Assembly (NCBI GenBank): GCA_946537565.1
Contig: CAMNFW010000010.1
Location: 1-19,463, forward strand
Source of the DNA: an uncultured Ruminococcus sp.
GTDB lineage: Bacteria > Bacillota > Clostridia > Oscillospirales > Ruminococcaceae
Direction: 5' to 3'
DNA: 19,463 nucleotides
Under the pieces are notes generated by a model. The model did no database searches. It was not told where the DNA came from and saw only the letters and a list, made by a program, of their open reading frames with translations. Positions 2,596 through 19,358 of this stretch are shown piece after piece. Numbering within the stretch: the first letter of the stretch is position 1; the number at the start of each line of letters is the position of its first letter. Both the position numbers and the translations under genes were made by a program.

Positions 2596-4299
2596 TTAGC
2601 CCTCAGTACCTGAGATGACCGATGTAATGTAAGATAAGCTACCGTTTATCAATTTACTGTTGTCGATATAATTACAGCCGTAAGTATAAGAAAGCACAGC
2701 CATTTTAATACCCTGGCATTCCACCAACTTTATACGGCTGGTATTTTTTTCTTCGGCAGATCTGTAAGAGCCGGTGTGATCGAGCCCTATGCTGTCCAGA
2801 ATATCAATTGTTCTGACAGCGCCGTTAACACCTTTGTCAAGAAGGTGATTATTTGCATTGGTAACAAGATCAAAGCCTGCTGCCTTGACTGCTGAGGCGA
2901 AGGAATCCGGAAAATTGAGATACAGTTCCTTACCGTCATCGAAATTGCTTGAAGTATAACCGGCATCTTCTCCAGCCATAGGTCCTTCAAACACACCTAT
3001 AGCATAATCAGCAGAAGAAATATATGGCTCAGCGTATTCAAATACATCAGAAAAATCATATTCTCCGTCATAGTATGCACGTTTCACCTGATCTTCCAGC
3101 AATATAAGATCGCCGGCGAAGGTTATTCTGAAAGCATTGTCAAAGGCATTTTTTTGTTCACCAGTCATTATTGGATAGATGATATCTGCACTGGTATTCT
3201 CAGAAGGATTTGAAGCAGCAGGAACCTGGTCAGTATCTGAGCCGGGAACAGGATAATTATTCAGCAATGCAGACACAGCAAATCCTAATGTGACAAATAA
3301 TACTGCGAGTTTAGCCGGATTGATTTTATTGCTGGAGTTTCCGGTGAAAATTTCGGCTCCGGAATCTGCAAACCTGTTGAAGTAAGGAGCGATGATATCA
3401 TTTCCGAAAATCAGGCAAATAAGCGGAGCGGCAGCAGCGGATGCAAGGATCATCATTCCGGCTGACATATTATTAATAGTATCACTGATAAGGAAGGTTA
3501 AGGGTCTGTGGAGCAGAAATATCCAAAGGGAGTTTCTGCCAGCCATTGTTATCAGAGGGATATTTTTATCTGGTGAAAGATACCGCAGCGCATAAATTGC
3601 AAGGAAGGCAGTAATGAAAAGAACTATCCTGCCGCAGGCATCTTTAGGCTCACTGTAGCCGCCCATTTGCAGAGCCTGGTCATTGAACCGGAAAAAATCA
3701 TATGCAGCAAAGGAAAAAGCGGCAGTGCCGGCGAGAAACAGCAGACCTGAGGGCAATCTCTTAAGGTATTCTTTTTTGGAGATTTCGCTGCTTTTTTCAG
3801 CGGAAAGCAGATATCCTGCCATATAGTATGGATAAAAACATATAATGCGTGCAGCTGAAAGGGTGTTGTCGATGCTGGGATAAAAACCGGCGAATAAAGC
3901 GACGGTGATAAGGATAAGGGTAATACTGCGGAATTTAGCGATATGATGAGCTGTAAGCCGCCAGGCGATAAGGGCAGTGAGATACCAGTAGGAATACATT
4001 GGGGTAAGCAGTGAGGTGAATCCGTAGGCAAAACCGATCAAGCTGTTAAATATGAAGTATAGAAAGACAAGCTTTACAATGCCTGCAAAGCTGTGTGAGC
4101 GTTTGCTTTTGCCGAAGTAACCGGATACAAAGACAAATGCAGGCATATGGAACATATAAATATAGTCAACAGTATGATCTATCAACGCCGATCTGTCTTG
4201 CAGCTGAAAGAGAATATGGGCAAATACCACCAGCAGCATCAGCAGACCTTTGATGTTATACCAGTCGGGGCTCCGCTCTTTTTTTATATCAGTGTTCAT
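2596..4299 (-). CDS. Membrane acyltransferase-3 with truncated CapA-like domain (first half of interrupted gene)
   Basis: Numbering here is from the upstream ATG at 4305; the likelier start is the ATG at 4299 because AGGAG ends directly against the first one. Residues 15-310 form a multi-pass acyltransferase-3 domain with about ten hydrophobic helices. It has a K19-x10-H30 pair in the first helix (the R/K-x10-H motif of the family), FHMPAFVFVSGYF at 52-64 and LLHRPL near 265. Such enzymes pass acetyl groups across the membrane to glycans; the layout recalls fucose-4-O-acetylase/OatA-like proteins. A further helix (332-349) leads to a low-complexity linker and then a CapA-like domain from about 393, with FAGDL (D399) and TNANNH (482-487). 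The frame stops at TAA after residue 569, before the CapA GDHPH motif. The substrate is unknown; it is probably a surface polysaccharide. Confidence 0.8.
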   Translation of the reverse strand: MNTDIKKERSPDWYNIKGLLMLLVVFAHILFQLQDRSALIDHTVDYIYMFHMPAFVFVSGYFGKSKRSHSFAGIVKLVFLYFIFNSLIGFAYGFTSLLTPMYSYWYLTALIAWRLTAHHIAKFRSITLILITVALFAGFYPSIDNTLSAARIICFYPYYMAGYLLSAEKSSEISKKEYLKRLPSGLLFLAGTAAFSFAAYDFFRFNDQALQMGGYSEPKDACGRIVLFITAFLAIYALRYLSPDKNIPLITMAGRNSLWIFLLHRPLTFLISDTINNMSAGMMILASAAAAPLICLIFGNDIIAPYFNRFADSGAEIFTGNSSNKINPAKLAVLFVTLGFAVSALLNNYPVPGSDTDQVPAASNPSENTSADIIYPIMTGEQKNAFDNAFRITFAGDLILLEDQVKRAYYDGEYDFSDVFEYAEPYISSADYAIGVFEGPMAGEDAGYTSSNFDDGKELYLNFPDSFASAVKAAGFDLVTNANNHLLDKGVNGAVRTIDILDSIGLDHTGSYRSAEEKNTSRIKLVECQGIKMAVLSYTYGCNYIDNSKLINGSLSYITSVISGTEG

Positions 4300-4305
4300 A
4301 AACAT

Positions 4306-11637: not shown

Positions 11638-11663
11638 TGCATAAAAATATGATTTAAGGATCT

Positions 11664-11722
11664 GAGGTGAAAAAAACCTGAATGAGCATCTTTTTTGAGC
11701 CGAAAAGGTGAAAAAAGGTGAA
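11664..11722 (+). promoter_or_regulatory. Distal AGGTGA box cluster, candidate MraZ sites
   Basis: GGTGA cores occur at 11666, 11707 and 11717, each preceded by A (full form RAGGTGAAAW). The last two are exactly 10 bp apart and the first is 41 bp (about four helical turns) from the second. They match the proximal cluster at the mraZ promoter. No convincing promoter lies directly beside them. Confidence 0.5.
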
Positions 11723-11850
11723 ATTCAAGTTAATATAAATAGCTAAAATTAAAACTTTTGTTTCGTAAAAATATCGGTCAGGTTTAATCATTATACAAAA
11801 TCACCAATTTACCGCCTGAATAATTATTAACGATTGTACAATATTACGGG

Positions 11851-11879
11851 TTGATTATTTTATCGTTATGGTTTATAAT
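11851..11879 (+). promoter_or_regulatory. mraZ promoter of the dcw cluster
   Basis: TTGATT (11851-11856), a 17-base spacer and a perfect TATAAT (11874-11879) form the best promoter in the gap. The predicted start near 11886 coincides with the first proximal AGGTGA box and leaves a leader of about 87 bases before mraZ. Confidence 0.75.
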
Positions 11880-11886
11880 TAATGTA

Positions 11887-11936
11887 GAGGTGAAAAAAGG
11901 TGATGTGAAGTGAAATTGACCCACTTTGAGGTGAAA
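11887..11936 (+). promoter_or_regulatory. Proximal direct-repeat operator, probable MraZ binding site
   Basis: GGTGA or AGTGA cores stand at 11889, 11899 and 11909, exactly 10 bp apart, with a fourth at 11930 (21 bp, two turns, further). All lie on the plus strand immediately downstream of the predicted transcription start. MraZ is known to bind short direct repeats with a 10-bp period upstream of its own gene (TGGG-type in Escherichia coli, AAAGTG-type in mycoplasmas). The boxes here resemble the latter. Autorepression is inferred. Confidence 0.65.
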
Positions 11937-11972
11937 TTTTCCACCTGACGGTATGAAAGCGAGGCGAAGTGC

Positions 11973-13399: not shown

Positions 13400-13892
13400 A
13401 CCAGACTCTGTCCGCCGCTACTACAGCGACACATACAGAGCCGAGTCTGATGACACGTCCGGTTACGGAGTGAGACAGAATAAGCCGGATTTAAAACCGC
13501 AGATCAGTATGAGAAATACCGAAGCAAAAAGCGGTTCTGTATTCAGTATAATTATTATATCCGTACTTGCTGCTTTGCTGCTTGGTCTTGTTATCAACAG
13601 TCTTAACAGACGAAATACTATGTATAATGACGTGGCAGATGCAAACAATAAACTGTCACTGTTAGAAGCCGAGAATGTCAGACTGCAATCGGAGCTTGAA
13701 AGCAGAATGTCTGCTAAAAACGTCGAGGAATATGCCGAGAATGTTCTGAATATGCAGAAGATCGACTCTTCGCAGATCAAGTACATCAGGATACAGACAG
13801 ATGACGTTGTGAGCATTCCTCAGCAGGACGAGGGTTTCTTTGCGAAGGTAAAGGGATTTTTCGACCGCTGTGTGGAATATTTCAGAGGGTAG
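13392..13892 (+). CDS. ftsL: FtsL/DivIC-like cell division protein
   Basis: This 166-residue protein is a single-pass membrane protein: a polar cytoplasmic N-terminus (1-48), one helix (49-71) and an outer coiled coil (about 76-108), followed by a short globular end. This layout and its place between rsmH and the class B PBP match FtsL, which joins DivIB and DivIC in activating septal synthesis. Sequence conservation in this family is low, so the call rests on topology and position. I choose the ATG at 13392: AAAGGAG (13374-13380) is 11 bases upstream, whereas the GTG at 13380 lies inside that ribosome binding site. The gene overlaps rsmH by eight bases. A structured 397-base gap follows. Confidence 0.8.
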   Translation: MAEPDSVRRYYSDTYRAESDDTSGYGVRQNKPDLKPQISMRNTEAKSGSVFSIIIISVLAALLLGLVINSLNRRNTMYNDVADANNKLSLLEAENVRLQSELESRMSAKNVEEYAENVLNMQKIDSSQIKYIRIQTDDVVSIPQQDEGFFAKVKGFFDRCVEYFRG

Positions 13893-13932
13893 TACCAATA
13901 TAAATATAAAACAAGGACTGCCTGATCAATTT

Positions 13933-13960
13933 TTGAATACTAACGGCAAAAAAATATAAA
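13933..13960 (+). promoter_or_regulatory. Candidate promoter for the structured RNA in the ftsL-PBP gap
   Basis: TTGAAT (13933-13938), a 16-base spacer and TATAAA (13955-13960) would start transcription near 13968, about 20 bases before the structured element. An A-rich hairpin, ACGGC/GCCGT (13943-13947 with 13964-13968), overlaps it. Confidence 0.4.
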
Positions 13961-13987
13961 AACGCCGTAGTGATAGTAGAACACGGA

Positions 13988-14091
13988 GATACAACGGGTG
14001 ATCGGAAATACCGGGATCACCACCCCGGCTTGGGCGCTCAAGCCGGGGGCGGCTGGTTCCACGCTTGAATAGCGAAATCCTTCGTCGTATC
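13988..14091 (+). ncRNA. Predicted multi-helix structured RNA of unknown class
   Basis: Hand folding gives a closing helix GATACAACG (13988-13996) with CGTCGTATC (14083-14091), 8 of 9 pairs. Inside it lie three hairpins: GGTGATC/GATCACC (13997-14003 with 14015-14021), a perfect 10-bp CCCCGGCTTG/CAAGCCGGGG (14023-14032 with 14039-14048), and CGCT/AGCG (14062-14065 with 14071-14074). The core is far richer in GC than the flanks. No coding frame fits. It could be a cis-regulatory leader, a small RNA or a mobile palindromic repeat. I cannot match it to a known riboswitch or ribozyme. Confidence 0.5.
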
Positions 14092-14101
14092 AAAAAGAAA
14101 A

Positions 14102-14171
14102 GGACATCACATAAAAAAAGAAGATGTTCAAAGGCGGGGCAGTGACAACACCTCGCCTTATTCTATTTTTT
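14102..14171 (+). terminator. Intrinsic terminator upstream of the PBP gene
   Basis: AAGGCGGGG (14131-14139) pairs with CCTCGCCTT (14151-14159), nine pairs with one G-U, followed by ATTCTATTTTTT. A preceding weaker hairpin is GGACATC/GATGTTC (14102-14108 with 14123-14129). The terminator ends either the structured RNA or the ftsL transcript. The downstream PBP gene must depend on readthrough or on a promoter in 14172-14289, where I see no good one. Confidence 0.75.
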
Positions 14172-14289
14172 AGAGCCTGAACAGCTGCGGAATAATTCTT
14201 CTTCAGCCCTCTTTGCACTTCAGAAAAATCAAAGCCGGATTCGCTGAACAGACTCTCTGGTAAAAAAGTCTCCCGAAAGGCAGGTTAAA

Positions 14290-16695
14290 ATGGCAAACTC
14301 TAACAGACCTTCAAAGGCAATGAAATTCAGAACCAAGATAGTCATGACATTCGTGTTTTTTGTTTTGTTCATTCTTGTGGCTGGAAATTTCTTCCGCATA
14401 TCTGTTCTGAACAACAAGAAGTATCAGAATATGGCGAATGATCAGCATTTCGGCTCGATCACGATATCTGCCCACAGAGGATCTATATATGACTCAAAGA
14501 ATACTGCCCTGGCAAAAAGCGCTTCGGTTTACAAGGTCTTCCTCGACCCTTCACGTTTCCGTGAGGATATGGAAACTCTGGAAAAGAGAATAATAAAGGC
14601 AAATGAAGAAATCAAAAACGGTACCTATAAACCAAAGACAGAGAAAACTACTGATGCTAACGGTGAAGAGACCGGAGAAGTCGTTGTTATTCCTCTGCCT
14701 ACATCTATAACCAATTTCAGGGACGAGGCTGTAGCATTTCTCGCTGAAAAGCTGGAGATAACCCCTGAGCGTGTTAAAGAGGCTATGGAAGAGGACAGCC
14801 AATACAGTGTTTTGCAGGATCAGGTGGAGAAGCCTGTTGCTGACGAGGTGCTTGCTTTTTTCAACCGCTATGACATGACTTGTCTGAATGTTGAGGAGGA
14901 TACAAAAAGATATTATCCCCAGAATGAGCTGGCGGCTTCTGTTATCGGCTTCACCGGTGCTGACGGATACGGCATCTATGGCATTGAAGCTTACTATGAC
15001 GACTACCTCGCAGGAGTTGACGGAAGAACTATATCTGCAAAGGATTCCAACGGTAATGAGCTGCCTTATAGGTATTCCAAAACTTATCCAGCCCAGAACG
15101 GAAATGATGTGTATCTCACACTGGATATGAATATCCAGTATATCCTTGAAAAATATCTCAATGAGATGAATGATAAATTCCAGGTGAAAAACCGCAGCTG
15201 TGCTATTCTTATGAATGCCAAGACCGGTGCTATCTATGGAATGGCTACCTGTCCCAGCTTTGATCTTAACAATCCCCGTGAGATCACAGATCCTCTCAGT
15301 CTTGCAGCTTTACAGGAACTTGAAGGCGAGGCTCTTGAATCTGCAAAGGGCGAAGCAAGAGAACTGCAATGGAAAAATAAGTGCATTACCGAGACTTATG
15401 AGCCGGGTTCTGTATTCAAGGTCGTGACCAGTGCGTCTGCCTTTGAAGAAAATCTTATTGACCTTGAAAAAGACTCCTTCTTCTGCAGCGGTCAGGTGGA
15501 GATACCGGGTGCATTTCAGCCTATCAAGTGTCATGATGTAAGCGGACATGGTGCCCAGAGCTATCAGATGGCACTCATGCACTCCTGTAACCCGGCTTTC
15601 ATTGAAATAGGAAAAAGACTGGGAGTTGAAAAATTCTGTTATTACTTTGATGCCTTCGGTCTCAGGGAAAAGACAGGCATCGACCTGCCGGCAGAGGTTG
15701 CCGGAAATGGCTATACAGCAGATAATATGTCAGCAGTAGACCTGGCAGAAAGCTCATTCGGTCAGGCAGAAACGATCACTCCTATTGAAATGATCACCTC
15801 TTACTGTGCTGCTATAAACGGCGGATATCTGCTTAAGCCTTATGTTGTGGATAAGATACTGGACGAGGACGGAAATGTTGTCCTCAAAAACGAGCGTACA
15901 GTGAAGCGGCAGGTGGTATCTGAGAGTACATCTGCGATCATGCGTGATGCACTGGAAAAGGTCGTTACCCTTAACGGCGGCGGAAATGTTACTATCAAGG
16001 GATATTCTATCGGCGGTAAATCCGGTACATCACAGCGACTCAGCATTACAGCTCAGGGCCTTGCTGTCGACGATGGTCAGGAGGAAGATTCAAGCATTCA
16101 GGAGTATGGTGCTTCTTATGTATGCTTCACACCGGCTGACGACCCGGAGATAATACTTCTTGTGCTGGCAGATATGCCTGATAAGGAGATAGGATATTAC
16201 GGCAGCCAGGTGGCTGTTCCGACAGCGAGAAATATACTCACAGAGGTACTGCCATATCTTGGAATAAATCCTGAATATTCAGAAGAAGAGCTTGCCAATC
16301 TTGATGTAAAGGTGCCGCTGCTGGAGGGTTCTCTCAGCGATGCAAAGGCAACTCTTGAAGGATTGGGCATTACTCCTGAAGTTATAGGAGATGGAGAAAA
16401 TGTTGTGGCTCAGTCTCCGAAGACCGGAAAGAGCATATCCAAGGACGGTACAGTTTACCTTTATACTGAGTCCAGTCATACTGTTGATTATACCGAGGTT
16501 CCTGACCTTAAGGGACTTTCAGCGGAATATGCAAATCAGTCGATAATGTACTGCAAGCTGAACTATGTGGCAAGAGGTGCTTCTGTAACCCGTGAGGGCA
16601 GCTATGTTGAGAGCCAGTCTTATGAACCGGGCACAAAGGTGCCGGTGGGAACTACTATCGAGCTTGAATTCATTGTCGGCGGAGACAGCGACTGA
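14290..16695 (+). CDS. ftsI: Class B penicillin-binding protein (FtsI/SpoVD family) with two PASTA domains
   Basis: This is a septal-type peptidoglycan transpeptidase. A cytoplasmic start and one membrane helix (17-39) precede a pedestal domain containing HRGSIYD (62-68). The transpeptidase domain holds the three expected motifs: S374-V-F-K377, S432-C-N434 and KSGT (577-580). Two C-terminal PASTA domains follow at about 672-727 and 733-797. At 801 residues it is somewhat longer than many; an insertion at about 110-135 (Lys/Thr/Glu-rich) lies in the pedestal. PASTA-bearing PBPs in the dcw cluster of Firmicutes include division PBP2B and the sporulation enzyme SpoVD, and sequence alone does not decide between them. 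Position between ftsL and murE favours a division role. The ATG has GAAAGGCAGG just upstream. Confidence 0.93.
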   Translation: MANSNRPSKAMKFRTKIVMTFVFFVLFILVAGNFFRISVLNNKKYQNMANDQHFGSITISAHRGSIYDSKNTALAKSASVYKVFLDPSRFREDMETLEKRIIKANEEIKNGTYKPKTEKTTDANGEETGEVVVIPLPTSITNFRDEAVAFLAEKLEITPERVKEAMEEDSQYSVLQDQVEKPVADEVLAFFNRYDMTCLNVEEDTKRYYPQNELAASVIGFTGADGYGIYGIEAYYDDYLAGVDGRTISAKDSNGNELPYRYSKTYPAQNGNDVYLTLDMNIQYILEKYLNEMNDKFQVKNRSCAILMNAKTGAIYGMATCPSFDLNNPREITDPLSLAALQELEGEALESAKGEARELQWKNKCITETYEPGSVFKVVTSASAFEENLIDLEKDSFFCSGQVEIPGAFQPIKCHDVSGHGAQSYQMALMHSCNPAFIEIGKRLGVEKFCYYFDAFGLREKTGIDLPAEVAGNGYTADNMSAVDLAESSFGQAETITPIEMITSYCAAINGGYLLKPYVVDKILDEDGNVVLKNERTVKRQVVSESTSAIMRDALEKVVTLNGGGNVTIKGYSIGGKSGTSQRLSITAQGLAVDDGQEEDSSIQEYGASYVCFTPADDPEIILLVLADMPDKEIGYYGSQVAVPTARNILTEVLPYLGINPEYSEEELANLDVKVPLLEGSLSDAKATLEGLGITPEVIGDGENVVAQSPKTGKSISKDGTVYLYTESSHTVDYTEVPDLKGLSAEYANQSIMYCKLNYVARGASVTREGSYVESQSYEPGTKVPVGTTIELEFIVGGDSD

Positions 16696-16724: not shown

Positions 16725-18164
16725 ATGAAATTAGCTGAATTACTCGAAAACAATGCCTCATCTGCTATAGGCGGCGCTGAGATAACCTCGATTACTGATG
16801 ATACAAGAAAGGTAAAGCCGGGAAGCCTGTTCGTTTGCATAAAAGGAGGCAGCTTTGACGGCCATGATGCGGCAGCTGAAATGCTTGAAAAAGGAGCAGC
16901 AGCTGTGGTATGTGAGCGTGATCTTGGACTTGGAGACAGACAGATAATCACGGAGAATTCACGGTTTTTATATGGAAAGCTCTGTGCTGCATGGTTCGGT
17001 CACCCTGAAAAGAAAATGACTCTTATAGGCGTTACCGGTACTAACGGAAAGACTACTACAACCAATCTTATAAAGCATATCCTGATGTCAGCCGGACACA
17101 AGACCGGACTTATCGGTACTATTCAGAATGAAATAGGCGATGAGATACTCCACACCGACAACACGACTCCTCTCACCTATGACTTTATGGCACTGCTGGC
17201 AAAAATGGCTGATGCAGGCTGTGAGTACGTTGTAATGGAGGTAAGCTCCTTCGGACTTGTTCAGAACAGAATAGGCTCATCATGGTTCAGAACAGCAGTG
17301 TTTACCAATCTTACCCAGGATCACCTTGATTATCACAAGGATATGGAGGATTACTTCCAGGCTAAGAAAATGCTTTTTGATGTCTGTGATGCGGCACTCT
17401 GCAATATCGACGACAGCTATGGAAAAAGGCTGTACGATGAGATAAACTGCGAGAAATATACCTTTAGCGTAAAGACTAAGGCGGATTTTTATGCTGACGG
17501 TATAAAGATAAAGTCTACTGGCAGCAGCTTCTGGTTCTGTCACGGTGAAAAGTCATACCTGGTAAAATCAAGAATACCGGGAATGTTCAATGTTTCAAAT
17601 CTCACAGCAGCAATAACTGTATGCCTCAGAGAGGGAATAAGCACAGATGATATTCTCAGCGCAATAGCAGCCTACAACGGTGTTAAGGGACGCTGTGAGG
17701 TAATTCCCACAGGCAGGGATTTTACAGTTATATGTGACTATGCTCATACTCCTGATGCTATTGAAAATATTCTTCGCAGTGTCAAGGAATACACGGACAA
17801 CAGACTGATATGCCTCTTTGGCTGCGGCGGAAACCGTGATGCTGCAAAGCGGCCGAAAATGGCAAAGGCAGCAGCTGCATATGCAGATAAGCTTATTGTT
17901 ACCTCGGATAATCCCCGGAATGAAGACCCTGAGCTTATCATAAAAGATATTCTTGCGGGCATTGAAAACACTGATGTGCCGTATGATGTTGTGACGGACA
18001 GAAGAGAAGCTATATATCATGCCTTGAAAATTGCTGAGAAAGGTGATATAATAGTTCTTGCCGGAAAAGGACATGAGGATTATCAGATACTTGCCGGCAT
18101 GGAGCATATCCATTTTGACGAGCGTGAAGTTGTGGCAGAAGGACTTAAACTGCTGGATAATTGA
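16725..18164 (+). CDS. murE: UDP-MurNAc-L-Ala-D-Glu:meso-diaminopimelate ligase MurE
   Basis: MurE adds the third amino acid of the peptidoglycan stem in the cytoplasm, using ATP. The 479 residues contain all three Mur ligase domains: an N-terminal UDP-binding domain with SITDDTR (22-28) and a GSLFVCIKG stretch, a central ATPase with GVTGTNGKTTTTN (102-114) and a lysine in QAKKMLF (K214/K215) for carbamylation, and a C-terminal domain with DYAHTPD (338-344) and GCGGNRD (366-372). DNPR at 395-398 is the meso-diaminopimelate signature, so the wall should contain diaminopimelate rather than lysine. One oddity is EVSSFG at 172-177, where most MurE proteins have histidine in place of F176. AGGAGG lies seven bases before the ATG, and the PBP gene ends 29 bases upstream. 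Confidence 0.95.
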   Translation: MKLAELLENNASSAIGGAEITSITDDTRKVKPGSLFVCIKGGSFDGHDAAAEMLEKGAAAVVCERDLGLGDRQIITENSRFLYGKLCAAWFGHPEKKMTLIGVTGTNGKTTTTNLIKHILMSAGHKTGLIGTIQNEIGDEILHTDNTTPLTYDFMALLAKMADAGCEYVVMEVSSFGLVQNRIGSSWFRTAVFTNLTQDHLDYHKDMEDYFQAKKMLFDVCDAALCNIDDSYGKRLYDEINCEKYTFSVKTKADFYADGIKIKSTGSSFWFCHGEKSYLVKSRIPGMFNVSNLTAAITVCLREGISTDDILSAIAAYNGVKGRCEVIPTGRDFTVICDYAHTPDAIENILRSVKEYTDNRLICLFGCGGNRDAAKRPKMAKAAAAYADKLIVTSDNPRNEDPELIIKDILAGIENTDVPYDVVTDRREAIYHALKIAEKGDIIVLAGKGHEDYQILAGMEHIHFDEREVVAEGLKLLDN

Positions 18165-18320: not shown

Positions 18321-19358
18321 ATGTCATTCTGGTTAATATGTTTGCTAATTGCATTGGTATCCTTTGCCATTGCCGGTATCTCCGGAAAATGGCTGGTTCC
18401 ATTTCTTCATAAGATAAAATTCGGTCAGCCTATAAAAACTGAGGACGGTCCTCAGTGGCACGCTAAAAAACAGGGCACGCCAACTATGGGCGGCTTTATG
18501 TTCATACTCTCTACAGTCATCACCTCCATTGCCGGATACTGGGTATACCGTATCCATTCAGGACTTGATACTACAGAAATATCAACTCATCATGCCTTCT
18601 ACAGACTGCTGAGCTGTGTTATTTTTTCGCTGCTATTTGGTCTTATCGGCTTTATTGATGACTACACAAAGGTTGCAAGAAAAAACAATGACGGCCTTTC
18701 TCCTATGCAGAAGATCGCATTGCAGACTTTGTTTTCACTGGGATTTCTTTTTGCGCTTTACAAGTTCGGAGACAGCTCCACTAAGCTTGATTTCGGCTTC
18801 TTCAAAACCCCGTCTCTGGGTATATTCTATTATATCATACTTGTACCTGTGATAATATATCTTACCAATGCTGTAAATCTCACTGACGGAGTTGACGGAC
18901 TCTGCGGCAGTGTGACCTTTGCGGCAATGCTGATATTTACTGTATCCTGTGCGATTCTGGATATGAAAGAGATCTCATGCTTTACAATGGCACTGGCTGG
19001 CGGATGTCTGGGATTTCTTATCTGGAACTTCAACCCGGCAAAGTGTTTCATGGGTGATACAGGCTCTATGTTTCTTGGTGCAGCTGTTACAGGCGTAGGA
19101 CTTATACTTCATAAGCATCTGCTGATGATACTTGTTGCCCTTGTTTATGTTATCGAGGCGCTTTCAGTTGTGATACAGGTCTTATACTTCAAGTACACCA
19201 AGAAAAAATACGGCGAGGGCAGACGTATCTTCAAGATGACACCTATCCACCATCACTTTGAGATGAGCGGATTCAGCGAGTACAAGATAGTAATAACATT
19301 TTCACTTACAGGCATTTTTTTCGGTATCCTGGGAATAATTACCTTGTTGACTTCATAA
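18321..19358 (+). CDS. mraY: Phospho-N-acetylmuramoyl-pentapeptide transferase MraY
   Basis: MraY is an integral membrane enzyme that moves phospho-MurNAc-pentapeptide from UDP to undecaprenyl phosphate, making lipid I. At 345 residues it has the usual length and about ten hydrophobic helices. Diagnostic stretches are GTPTMGGFMF (52-61), FIDDYTKVARK (111-121, D113/D114), NLTDGVDGL (186-194), FNPAKCFMGDTGS (237-249, D246) and the cytoplasmic PIHHHFE loop (308-314) typical of the family. The chosen ATG has AGGAG 11 bases upstream. It follows murE by 156 bases, most of which is the palindromic element; murF is not present between them, unlike the classical order. Confidence 0.96.
   Translation: MSFWLICLLIALVSFAIAGISGKWLVPFLHKIKFGQPIKTEDGPQWHAKKQGTPTMGGFMFILSTVITSIAGYWVYRIHSGLDTTEISTHHAFYRLLSCVIFSLLFGLIGFIDDYTKVARKNNDGLSPMQKIALQTLFSLGFLFALYKFGDSSTKLDFGFFKTPSLGIFYYIILVPVIIYLTNAVNLTDGVDGLCGSVTFAAMLIFTVSCAILDMKEISCFTMALAGGCLGFLIWNFNPAKCFMGDTGSMFLGAAVTGVGLILHKHLLMILVALVYVIEALSVVIQVLYFKYTKKKYGEGRRIFKMTPIHHHFEMSGFSEYKIVITFSLTGIFFGILGIITLLTS

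Follow-up and report, generated by a model that had tools for sequence, protein, structure and literature searches.

The dcw cluster and the ftsL-PBP gap

The window analyzed here, the whole 19,463-nt stretch of contig CAMNFW010000010.1 from an uncultured Ruminococcus sp., carries a dcw cluster in which mraZ, rsmH (mraW), ftsL, a gene for a class B PBP with PASTA domains, murE, and mraY follow one another in one direction. RsmH, MurE, and MraY score above the NCBIfam cut-offs, and MraZ, FtsL, and the PBP (best model spoVD_pbp) score below them. The ftsL stop codon ends at 13892 and the PBP gene (14290–16695, plus strand), the putative downstream target of the element described below, starts at 14290, leaving a gap of 397 nt. 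Next come murE (16725–18164), 3′ of the PBP gene, and mraY (18321–19358), 3′ of murE, both on the plus strand. Two side observations concern other parts of the window. Repeated GGTGAAA-like units lie 5′ of mraZ (11660–11950), and we take them to resemble MraZ boxes. On the minus strand, the adjacent ORFs 1369–2466 and 2596–4305 seem to be one protein broken in two, presumably resembling an acyltransferase/CapA-like protein.

A structured RNA ending in a terminator

The ftsL-PBP gap encodes a conserved structured RNA that ends in an intrinsic terminator. The minimum free energy (MFE) of positions 13960–14175 is −77.4 kcal/mol, compared with −54.31 ± 4.35 kcal/mol for 200 dinucleotide shuffles, none of which is as good (z = −5.31); the interval 13912–14171 gives z = −4.75 against shuffles. 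The MFE structure contains the closing stem (13988/14091) together with the inner helices, which the first-pass annotation drew by hand, and the fold is more than chance would produce, as it is also conserved in the genus and present as a single copy in its own genome.

Comparative evidence comes from alignment A1, which holds 76 of 82 representatives, and from a second alignment holding 69 of 72; strongly inserted rows were excluded and the columns number fewer than 400. One locus (L107) was left out of the gap alignment by length, and another alignment lost eight of its 109 rows by length and one as a duplicate. Over the 76 sequences, the drawn helices are paired in 83.4% of cells, compared with 39.6–47.9% when they are slid, and both-side changes occur at 30 of the 54 drawn pairs, a number reached by none of 500 shuffles. 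When 35,935 column pairs were ranked by mutual information, unguided by the structure, the outer pair of P1 came first; nine of the 54 helix pairs fell within the top 1% and 19 within the top 5%. Only two of the ten best pairs are part of the drawn structure, which points to much background from shared ancestry in this ranking.

All helices are on the plus strand. Hairpin P1 (13943–13968; 13943–47 with 13964–68) is paired in 97.3% of cells, and its outer pair has changed on both sides in 42 cells. It is followed by a conserved stretch, GTAGAACACGGA (13976–13987), which has seven invariant columns in alignment A1 and is unpaired in the drawn structure. The closing stem P2 (13988–14091) is made of two halves, 13988–92/14087–91 and 13994–98/14081–85, paired in 96.3% and 91.2% of cells, and surrounds conserved junctions, the variable arm P3-P4 (14013–14060), and hairpin P5 (14062–14074). 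P5 is paired in 88–90% of cells, and the hypervariable, poorly aligned arm P3-P4 in 36–85%. Hairpin P6 (GGACATC/GATGTTC, 14102–14129) is paired in 97.7% of cells, with four of its seven pairs changed on both sides. The last element is the terminator P7 (14132–14171), whose stem (14132–39/14151–58) is followed by T-rich sequence up to 14171. Its pairing is preserved in 99.0% of cells, which bears out the strong intrinsic terminator noted in the first-pass annotation; a simple terminator scan misses it because the scan allows loops of up to 8 nt and the loop of P7 has 11.

Because P2 hardly varies in the alignment, most of its pairs have low covariation ranks. When the arms were re-registered in 121 gaps (11 of them without a recognizable 5′ arm), the majority type GATAC/GTATC was found in 78 sequences, and compensatory arms were found in a few: GGCAC/GTGTC in four, GACAC/GTGTC in two, and GGCAT/ATGTC and GACAT/ATGTC in one each. 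Unusual arms have their partner in their own sequence in 15 of 21 cases, compared with 33% in majority-type sequences, a count in which the search window misses some partners, since nine GATAC rows were scored as unpaired and at least one of them (L003) shows GTATC in A1. The compensatory changes that the first-pass annotation named as support for the 13988/14091 stem thus exist, although they come from few sequences.

Distribution in the genus and beyond

The genus searched is the Ruminococcus flavefaciens group (125 genomes), which consists of cellulose-degrading rumen bacteria. A DNA search shows that the gap is conserved across the genus. In 110 of the 125 genomes the locus was fetched through its match to the gap, weaker scattered DNA matches being left aside, and 11 further gaps were added to give the total of 121. 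Upstream of the gap lies ftsL in all 110 fetched loci, and downstream lies the PBP gene in 109, the contig ending first in the remaining one (L104). The conserved core pattern was found in 59 named records; 56 bear the name Ruminococcus, and many of these are R. flavefaciens. Conservation of sequence extends up to the terminator; beyond that point it is limited to a Shine-Dalgarno-like block.

A core covariance model built from 69 sequences confirms that the gap RNA has homologs, as it matches 117 of the 125 genomes at one place each: 116 by a single match and one (G073) in two pieces. In the G073 locus (L067) the element is interrupted by an insertion located downstream of P5 and ahead of the 3′ strand of P2. 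The DNA of the element is present as a single copy in the window's own genome. A repeat or mobile element, which the first-pass annotation would have read from many dispersed copies, is ruled out by this single copy and by the one place per genus genome. No second operon carrying the large P2-P5 domain was found among the genus and family genomes searched.

Among 396 genomes of the family, the core model matches eight of the same genus and, weakly, four others. The latter (E from 0.004 to 0.047) are taken as chance matches, with no convincing ftsL or PBP gene alongside: tblastn for these genes gave E values of 0.6 or worse, and no hit at all for one of the four (L182). At the sensitivity of the core model, the large domain is therefore restricted to the genus.

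The eight genus genomes without a model match are of three kinds. Five (G087, G088, G103, G090, and G110) have gaps of 153–186 nt without the large domain, and all five keep a terminator hairpin, as judged by eye. One (G055) has a gap of 84 nt with neither domain nor terminator, and two (G031 and G083) showed no PBP gene of the dcw type.

A promoter-like signal at the end of ftsL

The promoter proposed in the first-pass annotation at 13933–13960 (TTGAAT-16-TATAAA) is not supported: it is unlisted by a simple scan, its −35 columns are not conserved, and it overlaps P1 (13943–47/13964–68). Upstream of it, at 13872–13909 on the plus strand, there is a conserved promoter-like signal that may act as a promoter. 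Its proposed upstream half coincides with the last six codons and stop codon of ftsL (GTGGAATATTTCAGAGGGTAG, 13872–13892), which are conserved at the nucleotide level: over 110 loci their wobble positions are 0.91–1.00 identical, compared with 0.32–0.75 in the 13 preceding codons, and GGAATATTT is kept in G103, G090, and G110 although F has changed to L. The other half is an AT-rich −10-like box (AATATAAATATAA, 13897–13909) conserved in the genus. Of the 110 loci, 102 have GGAATA and 100 have GGAATA-N15..21-TANNWW, and GGAATATTT and the AT-rich box are both kept in four of the five relatives without the large domain (all except G087). At up to three mismatches, the upstream half has one site in the window's own genome. 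At the corresponding place in loci of other genera, GGAATA-N15..20-TANNWT occurs in 16 of 55, compared with none of 550 positions taken as controls within the upstream ORF. The −35-like half of the signal differs from the usual TTGACA.

A leader of the PBP operon or a separate small RNA

The first-pass annotation left open whether the element is a small RNA gene or a leader gating PBP-murE-mraY. The position of the terminator is informative in this respect. With start codons chosen by script, the terminator stem lies less than 50 nt from the PBP start in 59 of 120 gaps (the distance for L104 is not a real one, its contig ending there), and a sigma70-like site of 9/12 or better follows the T run in 12 of 120. 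From these short distances and few sites one would expect that the PBP gene must often be reached by read-through of the terminator. The terminator stem and the PBP start codon of the window are 131 nt apart, which leaves room there for a separate PBP promoter.

Similar evidence comes from other genera. Terminator-like hairpins are present in 39 of 55 ftsL-PBP gaps, compared with 152 of 550 shuffles (28%) and 15 of 55 stretches after the PBP gene, among loci that are the best-scoring ones returned and are related rather than a random draw. An upstream ORF was present in 55 of the 56 loci and was taken as a putative ftsL; mraW is nearby in 54 of the 55. The hairpins in these gaps (L208–L264) often have a GGGTTAAGA...TCTTAACCC-like stem. 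Taken together, the distances, the terminators of the domain-less relatives, and the hairpins of other genera favour an old attenuator before the PBP gene, which in the genus carries the large domain.

The transcript of about 255 nt delimited by the promoter-like signal and the strong terminator, its one place per genome, and its long conserved stretches would also suit a gene for a small RNA that acts in trans, has a promoter and a terminator of its own, and merely happens to lie between ftsL and the PBP gene. We regard this as unlikely, if worth keeping in mind, because every one of the 110 fetched copies lies in the same gap and because the terminator stands near the PBP start, with nothing but the Shine-Dalgarno-like block conserved beyond it. 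The terminator is moreover kept where the large domain is lost, and the five domain-less relatives thus make a leader the better supported option. The first-pass suggestion of a leader gating PBP-murE-mraY therefore stands on the short distances and on these relatives, while its promoter position does not. The RNA is not 6S RNA (RF00013) either, which we take to resemble the leader in its similar size and long closing stem: seven of eight genus genomes tested match 6S RNA at other places, and the incomplete genome of the window has no match anywhere.

Terminator and proposed antiterminator pairing

Upstream of P1 lies the segment ACTGCCT (13917–13923, plus strand), a proposed antiterminator strand, whose partner GGGCAGT (14137–14143) belongs to the ascending arm and loop of the terminator. 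The MFE structure of a transcript cut at 14150 pairs the two, and in the full-length fold this pairing is absent and the terminator forms. At least four such long-range pairs are present in 113 of 120 sequences cut before the descending arm, compared with 10 of 120 at full length. The pairing shows some covariation: it is kept in 81.1% of cells, and 13 cells have changed on both sides, which none of 500 shuffles reaches. In a table of 77, 14, 2, and 9 sequences, CTG seems to change strongly together with GGC, and CTA with GGT, although few of these changes are independent. Another pairing, CTGCC/GGCGG (14133–37), was rejected, as it is paired in 96% of cells but has no both-side changes.

A constitutive terminator, producing a fixed drop in expression, with the structured domain serving RNA stability or a bound protein and without switching, would account for the simple hairpins resembling terminators that other genera have in this gap and for the weak statistics of the switch pairing. 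Shuffled 5′ segments make at least four pairs in 80% of draws, since the terminator arm is G-rich, and a segment pairs better with its own arm than with a swapped one in only 73 of 119 cases. On a quick tree the state of the 5′ segment changes twice and that of the arm seven times, mostly without the 5′ segment, and the arm follows a 5′ change in about one of two independent pairs (sign test, p = 1). The long-range pairs also rank low for covariation, the best being 980 of 35,935. We nevertheless give this explanation little credence, as it leaves aside the conserved junction nucleotides and the conserved 5′ segment, and as switch-like folds are more frequent in the truncated RNAs than with shuffled segments. 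The swap and shuffle comparisons lend the long-range pairing modest support, and the 5′ segment is likely an antiterminator, whose pairing may exclude the terminator.

Part of the 5′ strand of P2 and the positions after it (13986–14001) hold a GGAG-like stretch followed by GTG, which are conserved, unlike the ORF that they open. Leader-peptide attenuation, in which they would start a short ORF and its translation would control the terminator, is rejected as highly improbable: the stretch precedes GTG in 114 of 121 gaps, but the ORF has from 1 to 79 codons, its frame and sequence change past the first few codons, and in L105 it stops after one codon.

A candidate attenuator of septal wall synthesis

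The explanation that we favor, with some confidence, is attenuation of transcription in cis, with the gap RNA as leader of the PBP-murE-mraY section of the dcw cluster. As expected of an attenuator, an intrinsic terminator lies in the putative leader, on the same strand as the regulated gene and upstream of it. Transcription would start in or just after the 3′ end of ftsL, or run on from ftsL, and the leader would form hairpins P1 and P6 and the large P2-P5 domain before meeting the terminator in front of the PBP gene. When the ACUGCCU segment holds the ascending arm and loop of the terminator, it would act as antiterminator; when it does not, the terminator would form and end transcription in cells, and the operon would not be entered. 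P2-P5, which as in riboswitches is a conserved structured domain with conserved junction nucleotides, might sense a metabolite or a protein and bias this choice.

A folded RNA with a stop signal probably sets the level at which a key operon of cell-wall enzymes is expressed. To our knowledge, it is poorly understood by what means the dcw cluster fixes the amounts of the septal PBP and of the precursor enzymes, and a conserved attenuator inside it would, if true, give septal wall synthesis a direct point of control. In the large domain we see a candidate for a new family of regulatory RNAs. More tentatively, it may represent a new riboswitch class or a cell-wall-sensing leader RNA directly gating septal peptidoglycan synthesis, in which a metabolite (e.g., a lipid II precursor) or a protein would bind P2-P5 and set how often transcription reads through into PBP-murE-mraY; this control would build on an older terminator that many relatives in the order have in front of this gene.

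Comparison with known systems

At the gathering threshold, Rfam 15 has no match in the window or in the loci of 18 relatives, and a relaxed scan of 13890–14300 gives three matches with E values of 1.3–3.5, far below their thresholds. Together with the homologs and the covariation, this agrees with the first-pass view of an unclassified structured RNA. In the literature searched, including the main texts of PMC2864571, PMC8040213, PMC8632094, and PMC6429828, we found no description of it. PMC2864571 lists the mraW RNA motif of Actinomycetales (RF01746), a candidate structured RNA whose name comes from the dcw gene mraW. It resembles the present RNA, as far as that text goes, in being a structured RNA tied by name to a dcw gene. 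It differs in belonging to another phylum, and the Rfam scans of the present RNA do not match it.

Riboswitches with intrinsic-terminator expression platforms have a conserved multi-helix domain followed by competing antiterminator and terminator pairings, the same layout as predicted for the present leader. However, the latter occurs at a single operon of a single genus and its ligand is hypothetical, whereas many riboswitches serve further operons. Ribosomal protein leaders have a narrow distribution, a single linked operon, and a structured 5′ leader, and in these respects are like the present RNA, but here the target is the septal PBP operon and the protein partner is hypothetical. In conclusion, attenuator leaders are a known kind of regulator, and within Rfam and the literature searched, this RNA family and its place inside the dcw cluster appear new.
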